This document shows positions 8,233 to 49,575 of a DNA stretch of 64,000 bases, one piece after another; within the stretch, counting starts at the first letter, position 1, and each line of letters begins with the position of its first letter. The position numbers and the translations under genes are program-made. The DNA lies in IMG/VR virus record IMGVR_UViG_3300011113_000805, positions 62,001 to 126,000 of that record; one strand, written 5' to 3'. Source of the DNA: a virus. The notes beneath the pieces are model-generated. The model was not told the origin of the DNA. It saw nothing but the letters and a program-made list of their open reading frames with translations, and did no database searches.

Positions 8233-8496
8233 CTAAGTGAAACGCCTCAGTCTAGAGGGAACTTGTTCTCTTCCCCTTCCCTGCATTGCCCTAACATCAG
8301 GCGTGTTATGATGAAGTGCCCTGGAGTTGGGGTCTCCTCTCTCATTGGTCTTCTTGATTTCCTCGTTGATTCTTCTGATAAACCAGATTCGATAACTCAC
8401 CGGGATATTGTAAGTCTCCCAGTAAGAGAAACCCATATAGTACATCAGAAGGAAAGACTGCTCAAGAAAGATCTCTTTATCGCCCGGCGTCAGGCC
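8233..8496 (-). CDS. Probable +1 frameshift extension of the gp26-like protein (tail assembly chaperone)
   Basis: The +1 frame relative to the gp26-like gene is open from about 8568 to the stop at 8233. Protein-like sequence begins upstream of the only ATG (8445): GLTPGDKEIFLEQSFLLMYY runs straight into that ATG and on to NIPVSYRIWFIRRINEEIKK. No ATG, GTG or TTG exists in this frame between the upstream stop and 8445, and no clear ribosome-binding site precedes 8445. The residues before the ATG look as constrained as those after it. The simplest reading is that ribosomes shift +1 at the end of the gp26-like gene, giving a fusion of about 363 aa, like the G/G-T chaperones located between tube and tape measure in many tailed phages. 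The alternative is a 70-aa protein from the ATG at 8445. Confidence 0.65.
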   Translation of the reverse strand, partial: GLTPGDKEIFLEQSFLLMYYMGFSYWETYNIPVSYRIWFIRRINEEIKKTNERGDPNSRALHHNTPDVRAMQGRGREQVPSRLRRFT

Positions 8497-9325
8497 AAAA
8501 GAATGTTGCTCCCAACGGGATGCGCACCTCCGACATCTCCGAGCAAGCGGGACAGTCCATATGCGACTTCATGTCAATTCCAGGTTCAGCCTGATCAATT
8601 GTTTGCCTGAGAAAGAGAGAGTCTCTAGCCGGAAGAGACCTGATAAATGACCCAATAAGGGCCTTGTCACTCTTTCCTTCAACCTCAACAATTGAGAACT
8701 GGAGGCGGGTTGTTACCAAGTTGTCAGCCATACCACCGGCTTTCTTCTTTCTTTCAGAGATGAGCATAATCTCCTCTTCATCGGCACCAGTGAGAAACTT
8801 AAACTTTACTCTCTTCTTGGTGATAGGTAGCGTCACCTCAAAGAGGTTGGCACCAAACTGCACAGGTTGCAACTCCAAAGGCTTGATTTCAAGCTCCGAT
8901 AGGTTGAAAGTCTGCTTCGACTTTGTGCTACATGCAGGACATTCAACCTCTACATTATAGTCGGCCCCGTAACCGGTAATACGAAGTGCGACCATCAATG
9001 CATTACGGTCACCTGACAACATCTTTGTAACATCAATTCTCTTATCTACCAGACAGCTCTTGATGAGTTCGGTGATGACAGTGCCCTTCTTGATGAGTGC
9101 CTTTGAGGTAAGAATGTCCTCCTCACGAGCAGTCATTGCCCTAACATCAACTGTCTCACAGCCGTGCAATGGAGAGTCCGATGGATATGTCAAGCCCCTC
9201 GATGGAAGTGGCACAGCTTCCACTGGAATTTCGAAACCAAAATCATCCTTCATCACATCTCGAACAGGAACACCTGGGCCGGCCCCACCCGTAAATACAC
9301 CGTTACGCTCATTTCTTTCAGACAA
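8477..9325 (-). CDS. gp26-family baseplate/tail chaperone protein with two zinc knuckles
   Basis: A 282-aa protein resembling the T4 gp26-type 'base plate protein' family. It has an N-terminal 'PLPSRGLTYP' patch (about residues 39-48) and two CPAC pairs, at C129/C132 and C258/C261, which probably bind one zinc. It ends in FFWPDAGR. The start is TTG at 9325 with a GGAGG ribosome-binding site 5 bases away. That site lies inside the 3' arm of a perfect 13-bp hairpin (9327-9363), so initiation is probably restrained. Its position between tube and tape measure, and a +1-frame extension overlapping its end, suggest it acts as a tail assembly chaperone rather than only as a hub component. Confidence 0.8.
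   Translation of the reverse strand: MSERNERNGVFTGGAGPGVPVRDVMKDDFGFEIPVEAVPLPSRGLTYPSDSPLHGCETVDVRAMTAREEDILTSKALIKKGTVITELIKSCLVDKRIDVTKMLSGDRNALMVALRITGYGADYNVEVECPACSTKSKQTFNLSELEIKPLELQPVQFGANLFEVTLPITKKRVKFKFLTGADEEEIMLISERKKKAGGMADNLVTTRLQFSIVEVEGKSDKALIGSFIRSLPARDSLFLRQTIDQAEPGIDMKSHMDCPACSEMSEVRIPLGATFFWPDAGR
8494..8502 (-). other. Candidate +1 slippery site (TTC TTT TGG)
   Basis: In the zero frame the minus strand reads ACA TTC TTT TGG CCT. A ribosome with TTT in the P site can slip one base forward onto another TTT and then read GGC CTG ACG, entering the extension frame. The zero frame ends about eight codons later. A -1 shift here meets TGA almost at once, so only +1 (or -2) gives a product. 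Confidence 0.45.
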
Positions 9326-9363
9326 GATTGCCTCCGATAGCTTTGTAGATTATCGGAGGCAAT
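9326..9363 (-). promoter_or_regulatory. Hairpin burying the ribosome-binding site of the gp26-like gene
   Basis: Positions 9327-9339 and 9351-9363 are perfect 13-base inverted repeats (ATTGCCTCCGATA and its complement) with an 11-base loop. On the coding strand the 3' arm is TATCGGAGGCAAT, followed by C and the TTG start, so the GGAGG ribosome-binding site is fully paired. There is no T-run after the stem, which argues against a terminator. It would lower translation of the chaperone-like gene relative to the tube gene just upstream, or let another factor control it. Confidence 0.7.
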
Positions 9364-9389
9364 CGATGAATGTTAAATGCTATCGTGAA

Positions 9390-9878
9390 TCAGTATTGGA
9401 GGACACAGTTGTCCATCTGTAAGGTAAGGTTGATTTCGGCAGGAGCCTCGTCTTCGTAGGAGACATCACCAAAGGTGGCATTGGTGATCTGTGCTCCTTT
9501 GATGTCCCAAAGTTCTACCACAGTGCCAATTGGATCAAGCATTTTTAGCTGGAGATCGCGCTTGTAGAAGTCGGCATAGCCTGCACGACCGGAGACAGTC
9601 TCCATATGTGTGCGAATCCACTCCATCACCTGCTGAGCACCTGAGGGTGCAATGGGATCATAGAGTGTGACCGCCATTGTGCTGAACTTGGCTTTACCAG
9701 CAACATAGCGAACTGTGTTAATCCAGTGAATTTCCTGTTGTCCTACTTCGATAGTAGGACGGGCTGCCGTCTTCACGAGGAATGCGTCGATTCCCTCAAT
9801 TGCCAGAACCCATCGAAACTTACGCTTGGGCTCAAAGCGATTAGGAAGCATATCGGTAACTGAAAGTGTCTCTGCCAT
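9390..9878 (-). CDS. Tail tube protein (gp19-like)
   Basis: A 162-aa protein of the T4 gp19 tail tube type, close to gp19 in size (163 aa). Visible features are NRFEPKRKFRWVLAIEGIDA near the start, the 'GQQEIHWINTVRYVAGKAKF' region, a central DPIAPSGAQQVMEWIR helix and a beta-rich C-terminus ending in LQMDNCVLQY. Six copies per ring form the inner tube through which DNA passes. It follows the second sheath gene with an AGGAG ribosome-binding site and has its own promoter-like element (GTGAATAGATA) 17 bases before the ATG, as expected for one of the most abundant virion proteins. Confidence 0.93.
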   Translation of the reverse strand: MAETLSVTDMLPNRFEPKRKFRWVLAIEGIDAFLVKTAARPTIEVGQQEIHWINTVRYVAGKAKFSTMAVTLYDPIAPSGAQQVMEWIRTHMETVSGRAGYADFYKRDLQLKMLDPIGTVVELWDIKGAQITNATFGDVSYEDEAPAEINLTLQMDNCVLQY

Positions 9879-12850: not shown

Positions 12851-15800
12851 TCAAACGAGACGCCTGAAGGCGTAATTACGAAGTCGATGGCAATGAACTC
12901 CACCGTCTTGGTCGGAACTATAACAATCTTACCATTAAGTCTATTCTGTTCAGCATCTTGAGGTGTGTTATTGGTGTCATCCATAATGACCCTGAACTTC
13001 TCGATACCGGCCTGTGCCTGGATCAGTGAGAGCTGAGGATTGACGGATGCAATAAACCGCGAGCGGACAGCCGGTGTATTCTGCTCAAAGAGGATACCAC
13101 CGGCGGCCTGACTGACAACCCTCTTAACTTCCAACAAGAGTCTGCGAACATTAACCCTGTCAAGTGCTGATTTCTTCAATTGTAGTGTCTTCTGCCCAAA
13201 GATGACGAATCCACCAGATGGGAATGTTGCAATGGGATTGATCCTTGCATCGTACAAGGTGTCCCTGTCACCCTGGTTGAGTCGCACCTGGACGTTATTG
13301 ACGAAGTCAAGTGCAGCCCTGTTAAAACCTGCAGGGGCAAACCATGGGTAAGCAACCCGGTCATTGAAAGCAATTGCGCCCATTGCGGCAACTGATGCAG
13401 GAACCTTCACACGACGAGCCAGCGCATTATCAGTGATATAGACATCCGGAAAGTATGTAGTGGCATAGTTGTTATCAACATTCAAGGAGACGAATGTCTC
13501 TGATGTCTGCCTAACTGATGGGCGCCGACCGGTGGTATCATCGAATATCCGGACACCGTTATCATCATATGAGGGGATATCCCTAACAAACATCGCCAGT
13601 GAGTAATCACGAGCAGCGTCCTGCGCATAAGTTGTGACCAGGGCTTCCCTGATGCCTGGGATTGCAAGCAGATTAATGTTTGACGAGATCTCATCAGTCA
13701 TTATATCAGTTGCTGTCCTGTAGGCATTGACAATATTGTTAGAAACTCCGGCACCGGCTGCATTAGTAACTAGTCCATCCTCGACGGCTCCGGAAGCCTT
13801 ACCACCAGTCTCTGTCGATGAGGCCTTGTCATTCATTAGACGATTGTCCCTGTCCAGAATGTTGAGACCATCAAATCCGCCATAGAAGACTGTAGTGAAC
13901 TTGTTGAATGCAGCAAACCTGTTGAAGACAACTGATGAAGAGGCCACAAGGGTTGCCATTGTCACCCTATCGCCTGAGGCGTAATTGACTCTGTAGTCAA
14001 TAGGTGAAGGCTGACCATTTCTAACATAGGCGGCCTCACGCATATGCACCTCGGCAGTGCCGGTGACTGCTGAGATTGTAGTGTTTGCCAGTGCAACACG
14101 TGAGAGACTGAACTTGTTAGCGTTGAAGGCATCAGCTGCAGATCCAGTAACCAGAACATCTTGCTTAAAGATACCCTGGAATTTCGTGTAGCTCTTCACC
14201 AGGTTGTTTTCTAGTGTTCCTGCGTTATAGTTGAGGACAGCATTCTTCACGGAAGAAGTCGTTGGCATTGACTGCACGACAACACCCCAGTAGAGACGTG
14301 AGTCGGCGCGCTCATTAGGACCAGGAGCACCAATGTTACCATCAGTTTCACTCATCGTTCCCTTTGTCACCTTGAACCGGAAGGGCAAGGGTGGAAGAAC
14401 AGATGCAGTCAGCGGGAGAGCAGTTCCATCACCACCGAAGAGCCTGGGGCTACCAGTGAATGTTGTTCCACCAAATGTCAGTGAACCTGCGTAGTCAGTC
14501 AAAGAGTCAGTTGTCTTGAGAACGGGAATTCCTCTGAACCCGAAAGGTAGCGCGGCAGGTGGTACCTGCGCAGACTCAATAAGGGGATTCATCACAACCC
14601 TGAAATTGACGCTCCTGTTAGGGTACTTGCCTGAGATGATAAGGCGACGCTCGGACTGCTCATCGGCATCAAAGTTCCACTGGACTTTCTTGTCACCAAT
14701 TGCGCGTGCAATGTAGTTTTCGGCTCGAGGATTCAAGCTAAGAGCAGGATAGTACTCGAGTCCTTGTGGATTAAAGTCATCATCTCCAAATTGTCTTAGA
14801 ATAACATCGAAGGTACCATAAGGTTGATCAGGATCTGTGCTAGCCTGAATGTTCGCAATGGAGACCTTTAGTTTGTCATTGGCATACTCACCATCGGAGA
14901 TTGCCTCAAAGTGGAAGAGGTCATACTCATATGCACCGAAGGGCTGTGAGATGAAGGATGGTGTCTGGGGGGTTGTGAAACGAGTATCGTACCTGCCAAA
15001 AGCCGTCCTGTATGCTGAAGTACTTCCTGAGAGGATTGCAACCGTAGGATCTGTCACGGCAGTGCCTGTCATTACAGGTGCTAGCTCTTTCTCGACAGGA
15101 AAATCCAGGTAAAGCAGGTGTTTCTTAGAGGCAAAGAGATCAGGGTCGGTGTTGAGTACTCGTGAGACATATGCGGAGTCACTTGGATCAAGTGATGCGG
15201 TAAGGATCCTGACACCAGCAAAGCCATCATCACTATCAAAGCTTGACCCGGCTGCCGAGGAGATGATGAGCTTGAACCTTCTGGCAAGACCTGCTGTGTT
15301 GTTATCTGGGCCTAATGAAGCAGTTGTTGCCGCAGGTGAGAATGTCTTGTCAAAGGGGGCCACCTGAATACGAGTACCGGATGCAGGAAAGATCACCGCC
15401 CTGACAAGATTGACATTGTCTCCGCCGGTTCCGTCAACACTGAATGTAGGATTGTCAGTAAAGATCGGAAAGCCCTCTGCCTCCGTGGGGCCGGCAGTTG
15501 AGGCTGAAATATAGTGGCGTGCCACAAGAAACTGTACAGTGGAGTCGGAGTAGGGTGTACTTGCTGCTGTTGAAGCTGCAGGGGTGATCTTGAATCCTGC
15601 GCTCTTCACGGTACCATTAGTGATGGTGTCACTAATGTCAGAAGCATTGGAATTTGCACCACCACCAAGCACTCTGAGGAATGTTAGTGACTGTTTGTGC
15701 TTCAAGAACTCATTAACAGCATAGGGTGCAAATCGCTGTGGATCCAGGTCACCAAACCTGGCTGTAAAGTCTGTTATCGTCGCAAGGGTGACTGGCACGA

Positions 15801-17898: not shown

Positions 17899-19068
17899 TT
17901 AGCCTATCCTGATAGCTTTGCCCATTGGAATGGGAACTGCAAGGAGAGTTTTTCGAATATTATCAACTTGAGCTGCCTGAGTCTCGATGAGCTTGTCTAT
18001 CGTCATAGTGTCAAGCATCTCTTTTAGCTGTGTAATGAGCTTATCTTTCTCATCCCTGCCGTTAGAAACAAGATCACTTCCATTAAGCTGCAGCTCGCCA
18101 CCTGGGATTGGGACAGATCCAAACTTTGATCTCACCAACCCCAAGAGTTCCTTGCTGAGAGCTAGTGTGTACTGACGTGTCCACTGACGTCCAATAGAGT
18201 TGATGCGACTATAAACAAAGTTTCCAAAAGGTACGTTAGAAAGGTTGCTAATGCCGTAAAGAGAAGGATCATGAATGTCCGGATTAAATGGATCTTGAGG
18301 AAATCCAACATTTATCCAAAGTCTAGGTGGAATGTCGGAAACTGGTGTAGGGAATATCCGGATATTCTTGCCAACTATCTGATAACTATAGTTTGACCTT
18401 CTGACCTTGTTAGAGAGAGACATCTGTCCTCCACGGAGGATGTCCTCAAAGACCGGCAGAACATAGAAAACAGTCTCCGGCGTGAATGACTCGAAGGAGA
18501 ACTCATTGTTGAGGTAATTGATAGCCGAGGTTGTGTCAAAGAAACGATAGGCTGCCTGAGGGTTAAAGTGCATCACTTCAAATATGCGAAGCTTTCCTTG
18601 AGATGGATTGAGCGATGATGAAACTATCGGAACTCCTGAGCCATCAACAAGGTCTGTGTAGAGATTGTAGTCTTGTCTTCCTTGCTGCAACTGAATCGAT
18701 GCGGAGACAATGTTGTAAGAGCCACCAACACCCGCCGTAGACCCATATGGCTCTGCAAGTTTTAAAGCAAACTCTAATGTCTCACGAGGAAACTTTTGCT
18801 CCATCCCATCAAGTGTCCCAGTAGCGGCACCAAGCAAGTTATTGAGCTGTGATTTTGCCTGATACTGATTAACAATGGCACCATACTCGCAGAAAGCTTC
18901 CTCGAAACAGGCCCAAATTTGTTTCGAAGTGAGCTCCACTGAGAGAACATCATCACCAAGCTTTCTCTTGACAAATGTAACCATGGCATCGGCCTCTGCC
19001 TGAAACTGTGTATCAGAATCAAAGAAGCCAAATGGTGTCGGACTGAGGGTGTTTGCAAATGAGGCCAT
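17899..19068 (-). CDS. Neck protein (gp13-like)
   Basis: A 389-aa protein, first of the neck trio. It has a helical N-terminal part (AMVTFVKRKLGDDVLSVEL, then QIWACFEEAFCEYGAIVNQY) and a later 'NPQAAYRFFDTTSAINYLNN' stretch, both seen in gp13-type proteins of T4-like phages. T4 gp13 is 309 aa. The ring it forms sits between portal and tail. It lies just after the terminator at 19112-19144 and has a GGGAG ribosome-binding site, so it probably opens a separate transcription unit, but no NATANATA element was found in front of it. Confidence 0.7.
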   Translation of the reverse strand: MASFANTLSPTPFGFFDSDTQFQAEADAMVTFVKRKLGDDVLSVELTSKQIWACFEEAFCEYGAIVNQYQAKSQLNNLLGAATGTLDGMEQKFPRETLEFALKLAEPYGSTAGVGGSYNIVSASIQLQQGRQDYNLYTDLVDGSGVPIVSSSLNPSQGKLRIFEVMHFNPQAAYRFFDTTSAINYLNNEFSFESFTPETVFYVLPVFEDILRGGQMSLSNKVRRSNYSYQIVGKNIRIFPTPVSDIPPRLWINVGFPQDPFNPDIHDPSLYGISNLSNVPFGNFVYSRINSIGRQWTRQYTLALSKELLGLVRSKFGSVPIPGGELQLNGSDLVSNGRDEKDKLITQLKEMLDTMTIDKLIETQAAQVDNIRKTLLAVPIPMGKAIRIG

Positions 19069-19111
19069 CTTACACTCCCAATGTAAATAGGTATTGAAAG
19101 TGAAATTTGCA

Positions 19112-19740: not shown

Positions 19741-20538
19741 TCACACCGCGCCGTAGTTGATGACCTCGAAGGAGGCACCGTTATCGAGGCACCACTGGGC
19801 CGTCGCCTGCCACTTCTCGTGATCTACCGATGTCGTGTGACCCTTCACTTCGTAGAGTGTCTTACCATCAAGTGTGAGGAAGTCTGGGATGTAGGTGCGC
19901 TCGACTCCCTTCGGATCGATGTAGGAAATGCGAATGTCGTGCTGCTTCGTGATGGGTAAGCCGGCGCTGATGCAAGAGTCCAGGAATCGTGTCTCCCAGG
20001 AAGAGTGCATATACTCCTCCCTGCCCGTGAATGGGTTGAGCTTCCACTCGGCCCTGTAGGGAGCTTGAGGACCGATCTTTCCCTGTTCGAGGAGGTCAAT
20101 GGCTCGATCTGTCTGGCGCTTTCTCTTCTCTGCCGACTCGGGCTTTTGCCAGTTTTCAGAGTTTGTCTTGGCTGATCGCTTTCTGACTTCGGGTGTTATA
20201 TGTGATCGCATTAATGCAGCTTGTGCTATAGTTTTTTCTTTATTTTCATTGTAATAGCGCTCTAAATTTTGACGATTTTTAGCACCGATCTTGGCCTTAG
20301 ATTCGGCAGTCAAACGACCTTTGATCCTTGCTGAGTGTCCGTGAATGTATCGAAGAAACCTCATACCTTGAGATTTAGAGAAAGGTGCATCTTGACCACA
20401 CCCACACTCACATTTTGGAGGGACACCTCCGTAAAAATGTTTCAATAGATAGCTCTCGTAAGAGAGGCCATGGCATCTGGACACGTGTGAGGCTAAACGC
20501 TCAAATGACTTAAAACAAAGTTTGCATGTAGTTTCCAT
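19741..20538 (-). CDS. Free-standing homing endonuclease, PD-(D/E)XK type
   Basis: A 265-aa protein. The N-terminus has a C2H2-like finger (C5, C8, H18, H23) with the 'SYESYLLKHF' pattern usual in phage homing endonucleases, then a cysteine cluster (C43, C45, C47). A basic helical linker with a NUMOD-like 'KAKIGAKNRQNLERYY' follows. The C-terminal nuclease domain has E182 (SSWETRFLD), P218-D219 and E230-V-K232, the order of PD-(D/E)XK enzymes. It would cut DNA at a target site and spread by repair. It sits between the capsid gene with its terminator and the 150-aa gene. No ribosome-binding site is seen, which suits low expression. The capsid gene is uninterrupted, so this is not an intron ORF. 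Confidence 0.8.
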   Translation of the reverse strand: METTCKLCFKSFERLASHVSRCHGLSYESYLLKHFYGGVPPKCECGCGQDAPFSKSQGMRFLRYIHGHSARIKGRLTAESKAKIGAKNRQNLERYYNENKEKTIAQAALMRSHITPEVRKRSAKTNSENWQKPESAEKRKRQTDRAIDLLEQGKIGPQAPYRAEWKLNPFTGREEYMHSSWETRFLDSCISAGLPITKQHDIRISYIDPKGVERTYIPDFLTLDGKTLYEVKGHTTSVDHEKWQATAQWCLDNGASFEVINYGAV

Positions 20539-47211: not shown

Positions 47212-49575
47212 CTATATCCCCCGAGTGTTCTTATCAGTTGTTTGATTGGCAATTTCAACTTCACGTGCAATTGAATCTGCCAATCTAGATGTTAATTTTC
47301 TTGTTGAAATAGTTTTACCATAGGATTCTTCTCTTGAAATCGGTGGTGCTTTAATGATAGATGAATCAATTGGCAATGAGACACCAGCAGGTGCAGGCCT
47401 TTTTGATAATGTAATCTTGGAACCTGATGTAACTCTTGATGGAGCAGCTGCTGTGGATGATGCTGTGGCTGCATCTGTTGTGACTCCTGTTGTCTCTGAA
47501 GTCGATTTTGGAGATGTCCTAGTTGTCGTAGGTGTGGCCACTAGCGCAGTGGTCGATGCTGCAGGTGCATCAGAAACTCCTGATGAAGTTACTGCGCTTG
47601 TGGCTGCTGTATTAGCTATGACAAATGTCGAAACACCAAGCATAGATTGATTATTTTCAAAGTTAGGCATAAGCTCAGGAGGAATTGTTGTGCTATTCAC
47701 AACAATTGGATCCGTTATAGCTGATTTTCCAATTGTAAAATCATTGTAAATCGGAACAACTCTATAAACTACAGGTCCAGGTAACTTAAAAAGATCGCTC
47801 TTGTCGATAAAATGCATTTTCTTGAATGAAGTGCCCAAGAGCTTCTCAATGCCTAAATAAGTTCCATAAATCTGATAGTGATCAACAGTTGCAGGATTTC
47901 CAAGTATGCTCCACTGTACAATGTTTGATCTGCCAGGCAATGTACTAATTCTAAGTGAAGTTATTGTTGCCAAGCTGATTTGTGAAATGTTTCCTTCGAT
48001 AGCAATGTCAGCAATTGCAACGGGAGTTCTGGTAGAACCTGTAACTCTATTTAGAAAGAACTTATAGTGCCTACCATAAATTTCATCAGTAGGAACATCC
48101 CAAAATGAATCAGGTTGCCACTCAACAGAAATAGTAGAATTGCCCGAGCCTGATATTATGGATGTGGCAGAAACCTGCTCAGATGTTGAAAGTGAAATTG
48201 ATTCGACATCAATTTCTATAACATCAGTAGGATTTTTCCCATTAAAATCTATCTGGAACTTGGGGACAGTACCCTTTGAAAGCTGTAAAATTTCAACATC
48301 AACTTTTGATGTTAACTGTGTAGGCCTAATATACTTCCAGACAATATAGTTTGATGAAACGAATTTTGCTCCATACAAAAATTCAAACTCTAGAGACACA
48401 TTGTAAGTACTCCCATACATCAATAATCCTCTAGCATTTCTTGAAATTTCAATTCGAATGTCATTATCGCCTGATAATATACTTACTCTTTCTCCTGTTT
48501 GACTTCCTACGCCTGATATTAAGGCGAATTTAGCAACAACGCTCTTGGCATTATGTGGAATTGAATTCGACGGTACAATAATGACATTGTTGGCATCTAT
48601 GTAGAAGGGAGCAATTAGCCCAGAAATAACAGTACCATTATTGAAAAAACCTATCTCATTAGTAATGTCACCTTCCTGTGATAAGCCAACTGTTCTTAAA
48701 AAGAAAGATGTTCCTGCTGACGATGGAAGCAAATCATTGATTGATCTTGGACTAGGCGTTGTAGGATCGATAGTGAATGAATTTTCAGGATATTGCAAAA
48801 ATGAGTAATCATTGAAGCTCTTTCTGTATCTTGCATAGCTTGCTGATTTGCCATCAGAAAGGTTTAGCCCTGATAGCAAATTTTCAATTTTGTCTGCTAT
48901 GTCAATTTCAAGAAATTCTATTCCATCTTTACTTTGATATTGAAGCTCATAAACTTCGCCAATCTCAAAGTTAGATCTGCTTATATCTACAGTGATTTCA
49001 ATGATTCGATAGTCGGTTTCAATCTCAACAGTTTCAATTTCATATGATTCACCTGTACTAACATAGTGAATGCTATTTCTGTCTTGAGGAACACCATAAT
49101 TCACGTCTATGAATGAAGCTTCACCAATTCCTAAACTTGCAGGATCTTTTTTAAGATAAAAAACCAAGTTTCTCATAAGTTCAGCTGTTATCTCAGTTCC
49201 ACTTTTTGCACCATCATTAGCTGGATTTCTTATGATACTTTTTCCTATCACCTTTGCTTGACTATTCAGCGTAGATGATGAGATTGTTATTGGAACTACT
49301 ATGCTTAATTTCTGTGAAACTAGAGCTCTCTCGGCGCCTGTTAAGGATTGAAACGTTATATCTGATATTGCAATTGGCAATTGTGAAATTGGAGGCCTAA
49401 TTTGCAGGGTTACCTTTCCTCCCTCTTCAAGGTATCTTTTGCTATTGATGGCAAACCTGACAGTTACCTTAATATTCCCCGATGCCAGCATTTCCAATTT
49501 AGAAATAGGTGAGTTTGCAGCCCTGAACATTCCTCCATCGGCATTGGACTCGACAACATTAACTCTTGCTCTCAT
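47212..49575 (-). CDS. Structural protein with FN3-like domains and Thr/Ala-rich tail (787 aa)
   Basis: A 787-aa protein. Residues 1-560 are beta-rich with several Ig/FN3-like stretches; about 565-640 (ITSLRISTLPGRSNIVQWSI, then IYNDFTIGKSAITDP) is a fairly clear FN3 module. Residues about 650-740 are almost only Thr, Ser, Ala and Val, like a mucin-type spacer. The end is basic and polar. It may be a fibre shaft or an extended linker. It overlaps the 308-aa gene by ATGA and is followed after 3 bases by the 1163-aa gene. Confidence 0.7.
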   Translation of the reverse strand: MRARVNVVESNADGGMFRAANSPISKLEMLASGNIKVTVRFAINSKRYLEEGGKVTLQIRPPISQLPIAISDITFQSLTGAERALVSQKLSIVVPITISSSTLNSQAKVIGKSIIRNPANDGAKSGTEITAELMRNLVFYLKKDPASLGIGEASFIDVNYGVPQDRNSIHYVSTGESYEIETVEIETDYRIIEITVDISRSNFEIGEVYELQYQSKDGIEFLEIDIADKIENLLSGLNLSDGKSASYARYRKSFNDYSFLQYPENSFTIDPTTPSPRSINDLLPSSAGTSFFLRTVGLSQEGDITNEIGFFNNGTVISGLIAPFYIDANNVIIVPSNSIPHNAKSVVAKFALISGVGSQTGERVSILSGDNDIRIEISRNARGLLMYGSTYNVSLEFEFLYGAKFVSSNYIVWKYIRPTQLTSKVDVEILQLSKGTVPKFQIDFNGKNPTDVIEIDVESISLSTSEQVSATSIISGSGNSTISVEWQPDSFWDVPTDEIYGRHYKFFLNRVTGSTRTPVAIADIAIEGNISQISLATITSLRISTLPGRSNIVQWSILGNPATVDHYQIYGTYLGIEKLLGTSFKKMHFIDKSDLFKLPGPVVYRVVPIYNDFTIGKSAITDPIVVNSTTIPPELMPNFENNQSMLGVSTFVIANTAATSAVTSSGVSDAPAASTTALVATPTTTRTSPKSTSETTGVTTDAATASSTAAAPSRVTSGSKITLSKRPAPAGVSLPIDSSIIKAPPISREESYGKTISTRKLTSRLADSIAREVEIANQTTDKNTRGI

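Follow-up and report, generated by a model that had tools for sequence, protein, structure and literature searches.

Between the tail tube gene and the gp26-like baseplate hub gene of a large tailed phage, we found a perfect hairpin that hides the ribosome-binding site of the downstream gene and contains a predicted sigma70-type promoter. We consider it probable (roughly 0.7) that this junction is a read-through insulator, in which the Shine-Dalgarno (SD) sequence would be hidden on RNA running in from upstream and the built-in promoter would provide a translatable RNA. The window, i.e. the whole stretch of DNA analysed here, is 64 kb lying inside a virus record of 257,178 bases. The evidence, all of it read from DNA, comprises the hairpin and its geometry, a conserved promoter motif, compensatory changes and the fact that strong hairpins come without a separate terminator.

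In the mechanism that we propose, a polymerase arriving from the sheath-tube operon would make an RNA with both arms of the hairpin, on which the 14-bp stem would form, hide the GGAGG and leave the gp26-like gene untranslated. The sigma70-type promoter, with its −10 atop the 5' arm, would initiate a separate RNA in the loop, and this RNA, having the 3' arm alone, would expose the GGAGG and allow gp26 to be translated at a level set by the promoter. The run-in RNA, the firing of the promoter, the translational block and its release are presumed here, and the likely purpose would be to keep the dose of hub protein apart from that of the tube.

The gp26-like protein scored 62 bits against PF12322, above the Pfam gathering score of 24.5, and both T4 gp26 and T4 gp51 belong to this same family; T4 gene 26 is a homologue of the window gene (PF12322, PHROG 150). 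The stop of the tube gene (9390) lies 25 nt ahead of the hairpin. An earlier note made from the sequence had described a perfect 13-bp hairpin with an 11-base loop, a GGAGG entirely buried in the stem and no T-run. The loop and the burial were both borne out, and the pairing is indeed perfect, only the length needing correction, to 14 nt in each arm (100% complementary). A strong T-run is absent 3' of the stem, where TTGTCTG stands, so that the hairpin does not qualify as an intrinsic terminator. The folding energy of the 39-nt hairpin RNA is −22.2 kcal/mol, which none of 200 dinucleotide shuffles equalled (z −7.6), and the 111-nt junction gives a z of −4.9. It is the sole perfect non-palindromic inverted repeat in the window that exceeds 11 nt and has its arms no more than 40 nt apart; across the 257-kb record, six perfect stems reach 14 bp or more (loop up to 20), this one among them. 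A chance origin was ruled out by the z value of the hairpin together with the compensatory changes described below. Rfam covariance models at gathering score gave no match in the window to a riboswitch, thermometer or leader.

Features of the tube-gp26 junction and the gp26-like gene (positions are those of the window).
Feature	Position	Strand	Basis and remarks
Tail tube gene	9390..9878	minus	PHROG 4542, E 2e-29; upstream neighbour of the hairpin
Putative −35 element, TTAACA (TTTAAC if read from 9377)	9371..9376	minus	Matrix (PWM) from relatives
5' arm of the 14-bp stem, GATTGCCTCCGATA	9351..9364	minus	Inverted-repeat search and folding
Putative −10 element, GATAAT	9349..9354	minus	Relatives and PWM; GATA is the top of the hairpin 5' arm
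Loop, 11 nt	9340..9350	minus	Inverted-repeat search; predicted transcription start inside (about 9341-9343)
3' arm of the stem, TATCGGAGGCAATC	9326..9339	minus	Inverted-repeat search and folding
Shine-Dalgarno sequence, GGAGG	9331..9335	minus	Wholly within the 3' arm; 5 nt ahead of the TTG
gp26-like baseplate hub gene	8477..9325	minus	TTG start at 9325, 282 aa; PF12322 E 9e-17, PHROG 150 E 2e-21
Candidate frameshift motif, TTYTTTTGGCCTGA	8490-8503	minus	Lies where the gp26-like ORF ends; position shared by nearly all the relatives examined

The promoter had been overlooked in the earlier note and came to light through the relatives, which were fetched via their gp26 and tube proteins and whose junction sequences were then read. 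The motif TTTAC was present 35–90 nt ahead of the gp26-like start in 75 of the 89 junctions of relatives (18 ± 4 in shuffles), and anchoring the junctions on it revealed a second peak of information 22–28 nt downstream, the position of a −10. Refined among the relatives, this −10 reads TATAAT or GATAAT at a spacing of 16–17 nt. Counting TTTAC in the intergenic DNA of the phage itself told us nothing useful, the genome being densely coding. With a matrix built from the relatives, the window being left out, the site TTAACA-N16-GATAAT (9376-9349) scored 12.8, ranking 14th in 257 kb over both strands. Its −35 (TTAACA/TTTAAC) differs from TTTACA, a point against the insulator reading. We placed the transcription start at the predicted position about 7 nt after the −10; since GATA forms the end of the 5' arm, an RNA begun there would start in the loop and could not form the stem. 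The promoter thus appears positioned so that its RNA would lack the 5' arm. The earlier suggestion of a translational brake or switch is therefore retained as far as the burial of the SD goes and set aside as a general brake on the gene: with the predicted promoter inside the hairpin, braking should be confined to RNA that reads through from the tube gene.

Modelled energies follow this geometry. Opening the SD of the window gene would cost 18.0 kcal/mol in the run-in RNA versus 4.5 in the promoter-started RNA, and the corresponding pairs for the three relatives with a related hairpin are 19.5 and 2.7 (L089), 16.9 and 3.4 (L084) and 15.0 and 2.5 (L085), with z from 6.5 to 8.7 against shuffled leaders for these four loci. 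For a second set of hairpin loci, designated clade B (L048, L055 and L057), the values were 12.3–13.5 for run-in versus 1.7–2.5 for promoter-started RNA. The SD of the long transcript is thus predicted to lie in a stable stem, and the folding energies would imply poor translation of the long RNA and good translation of the short one. One alternative is a plain brake, with gp26 expressed from polycistronic RNA only, the hairpin reducing its output compared with that of the tube, and the promoter-like sequence going unused. The stem and the buried SD are real and such hairpins can damp translation, e.g. in Bacillus subtilis sigG (PMC5942855), but an opening cost of 18 kcal/mol exceeds the needs of a mild brake, and a promoter of this type precedes the gene in most relatives, hairpin or not. 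Moreover, a terminator cuts the tube RNA ahead of the gene in most relatives, where the gene must consequently have its own start. We regard this alternative as unlikely.

The earlier note had proposed a search of related genomes for compensatory changes in the stem, and such changes were found. Across the four hairpin loci of the window clade (the window, L089, L084 and L085), 98% of cells pair and four pairs are altered on both sides, versus 0 or 1 double-sided changes in a control in which the partner was slid along. Most of this compensation falls in the outer stem, a region free of the SD and the −10. In clade B, with 58–60% gp26 identity, the stem sequence is unlike that of the window; its core is invariant, and the lower stem varies in all three loci and still pairs. 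Because the MAFFT alignment had misplaced the lower stem, we traced the pairs of this clade by starting at the shared core and moving outwards. L055 and L057 have a −10-like sequence in either the loop or the 5' arm, and L048 is without a good −35, which counts against the insulator reading. The tree places the two hairpin clades apart and an AU test rejects a single clade; to judge from these sequences, a hairpin of similar layout evolved independently in clade B. Within the window's clade of 21 loci the strong hairpin is found in only four, and L082 and L002 are nested inside this clade without it, which likewise counts against the insulator reading; the tree gives four gains or losses overall. 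Scans of viral contigs with exact and near-exact hairpin patterns returned nothing beyond L089, L084 and L085.

These relatives support selection on the pairing, and they bear directly on the possibility that the inverted repeat is a DNA operator, bound by a regulator over the promoter. The dyad symmetry does cover the −10 and the predicted start, yet the half-sites vary between relatives while the pairing is kept, G-U pairs included, whereas an operator would keep its sequence; the clade B repeat at the same place is also unrelated in sequence. An operator is accordingly very improbable.

Most relatives carry an intrinsic terminator at this junction. It was identified between the tube gene and gp26 in 57 of the 59 other direct junctions and was absent from five of the six junctions with a hairpin, the match in the sixth (L085) being the occluding hairpin itself, which has a T-rich tail. 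At the window junction both a looser and a stricter terminator scan were negative. The contrast between terminator and hairpin gives a Fisher p of 1.5e-5 with kinship ignored, and comes down to three independent pairs, a number that cannot sustain a sign test. It is from these counts that we take the hairpin to replace the terminator, most likely standing in for it as an insulator against read-through, an exchange resting on few origins. The lack of a separate terminator would also be indirect support for upstream transcripts running through the gene. Individual loci vary: L082, a near relative, has a terminator in place of the hairpin; L002, in which an endonuclease-like gene is inserted, shows by eye no clear terminator and weak pairing only; and L005 has a terminator and a moderate hairpin together, again a point against the insulator reading. 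Endonuclease-like zinc-finger ORFs inserted between tube and gp26 were seen in three relatives (L002 1312-2937, L008 1539-2381, L063 1969-2862), and a Pfam search of these three gave no match.

Given that the hairpin occupies the place of the terminators of relatives, it might itself be a transcription terminator or an RNase III cutting site, the hiding of the SD being incidental. Around the start codon the sequence is somewhat U-rich (TTGTCTG), and TAGTTTT follows the stem in L085; against this, the window, L089 and clade B all lack a real T-run (in clade B, ATGTCT comes next), terminator scans were negative at the hairpin in all of these, and the SD always sits in the 3' arm, which a terminator would not need. 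We think this improbable, slightly more so than a plain brake.

As an insulator, the hairpin would have two counterparts among the relatives. In most of them, a terminator between the tube gene and the promoter would do the equivalent job, and in others a terminator with the −10 in its loop would do so. Terminator hairpins upstream of gp26 were seen in L115, L119, L125, L126, L127, L129, L130 and L132, most of which have a −10 (TATACT, TATAAT or TATTAT) in the terminator loop, 17 nt after a −35 that reads TTTACA, TAAACA or TTAACA. A terminator of the L125-L132 type would stop run-in RNA and spare the RNA from the loop promoter. It is conceivable, though we would put it somewhat short of an even chance, that three exchangeable insulators evolved at this single junction within a large family of phages, each leaving a complete hairpin only on upstream-derived RNA: a terminator followed by a promoter; a −10 in the terminator loop (the L125-L132 group); and an SD-hiding hairpin with the −10 in its arm or loop (the window clade and, separately, L048/L055/L057). 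Swaps among them would keep the dose of the baseplate gene apart from that of the tube, and the device may also serve other genes of this phage.

Arrangements of this kind are already known, as T4 genes e and 26 share the architecture. Hairpins that form on long upstream transcripts only, together with late promoters, have been described for T4 e, soc, 49, I-TevI and segB and for Aeh1 mobE (PMC2988022, PMC3014915); a promoter in or beside the 5' arm gives the translatable RNA, and the effect for gene e is about 100-fold (PMC3014915, PMC2988022). Our scan for SD-covering stems recovered the gene e hairpin in T4, with opening costs of 13.3 versus 0.8 kcal/mol by the measure used above. In T4 gene 26 (10.3 versus 2.5), the DNA shows GCTCCTTTTATT...AATAAAGGAGC hiding the SD and a late promoter, TATAAATA, in the loop; a review lists T4 25 and 26 among genes with a sequestered ribosome-binding site, citing Gruidl 1991 (PMC2988022). 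T4 differs from the window in having this late promoter, another gene order and an imperfect stem. Since intermediate relatives use terminators, the window hairpin probably has an origin independent of that of T4 gene 26. Whereas the e-type device of T4 delays late genes lying in early or middle units, both window genes are structural and the device would set dose and not timing. The promoter class also differs, being sigma70-like (TTAACA-N16-GATAAT); the T4 late promoter is missing at the window junction, and the mechanism does not need it. By analogy, the window device would work like that of T4 without being a T4 late-promoter element. For B. subtilis sigG, it has been proposed that a long hairpin prevents translation of transcripts reading through from the preceding operon, whereas RNA started at the sigG promoter itself is unable to form it (PMC5942855); sigG is a chromosomal sporulation gene and has no shared ancestry with the window.

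The window adds to this known kind an example with an ordinary sigma70-type promoter, set in a structural operon. This suggests that the T4 trick of a promoter within a hairpin over the ribosome-binding site extends far beyond the T-even phages, to a junction between two structural genes, and that it can stand in for a transcription terminator. The junction also offers a natural comparative series (terminator, promoter-in-terminator and promoter-in-hairpin) in which to ask how phages separate neighbouring genes of very different dose. There is also a practical caution: low expression should not be read off a buried ribosome-binding site unless one knows where the transcript begins.

The earlier note had further counted a TTG start and a frameshift, with the buried site, as three layers of dosage control on one locus, which our comparison does not bear out, both of them being independent of the hairpin. 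Its premise that only small amounts of the gene product are needed is an assumption. The TTG is retained in close relatives without the hairpin, and so is not part of the device; more distant relatives have GTG or ATG. The frameshift signal itself looks real, and it is the tie to the hairpin that fails, the signal being present with or without one. The conserved position of TTYTTTTGGCCTGA is suggestive of a programmed frameshift there. The +1 (or −2) frame runs on for about 80 aa, to about 8233, with a conserved FGLTP...FLLMYYMGFSY, an extension that is a candidate gp51-like segment to judge from its position and apparent resemblance; a PHROG scan of a stretch of this frame gave no match.

Genome-wide, seven SD-hiding hairpins were counted versus none in Markov controls. 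We do not claim a genome-wide system, as the excess becomes modest when SD-like motifs from the rest of this genome serve as the control (p 0.03) and is absent in three of five relative genomes. Outside the window, SD-hiding stems in the same record (G000 130271-130315, 131130-131164, 48574-48615 and 13627-13664) stand right before the starts of ORFs that are glycosyltransferase-like, nuclease-like or other; the stem at 13627 has TATAAT in its loop, and the relatives of that gene also pair. Inside the window, a 10-bp stem (19073-19102, minus strand) covers the GGAG of a neck-like gene (17899-19068) and follows a terminator, and in L243 the homologue of this gene carries a stem there too, 12 bp long and different in sequence. 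A TnsA-like ORF lies at 19741-20538 of the window. In T4, a 10-bp stem covers the SD of denV (L283 364-406), preceded by TTTACA and holding a TGATACT-like −10 in its loop; this may be an early-type version of the device. Finally, two tandem perfect hairpins of 17 and 13 bp (G000 198094-198197) are located between two minus-strand ORFs, away from a start codon.
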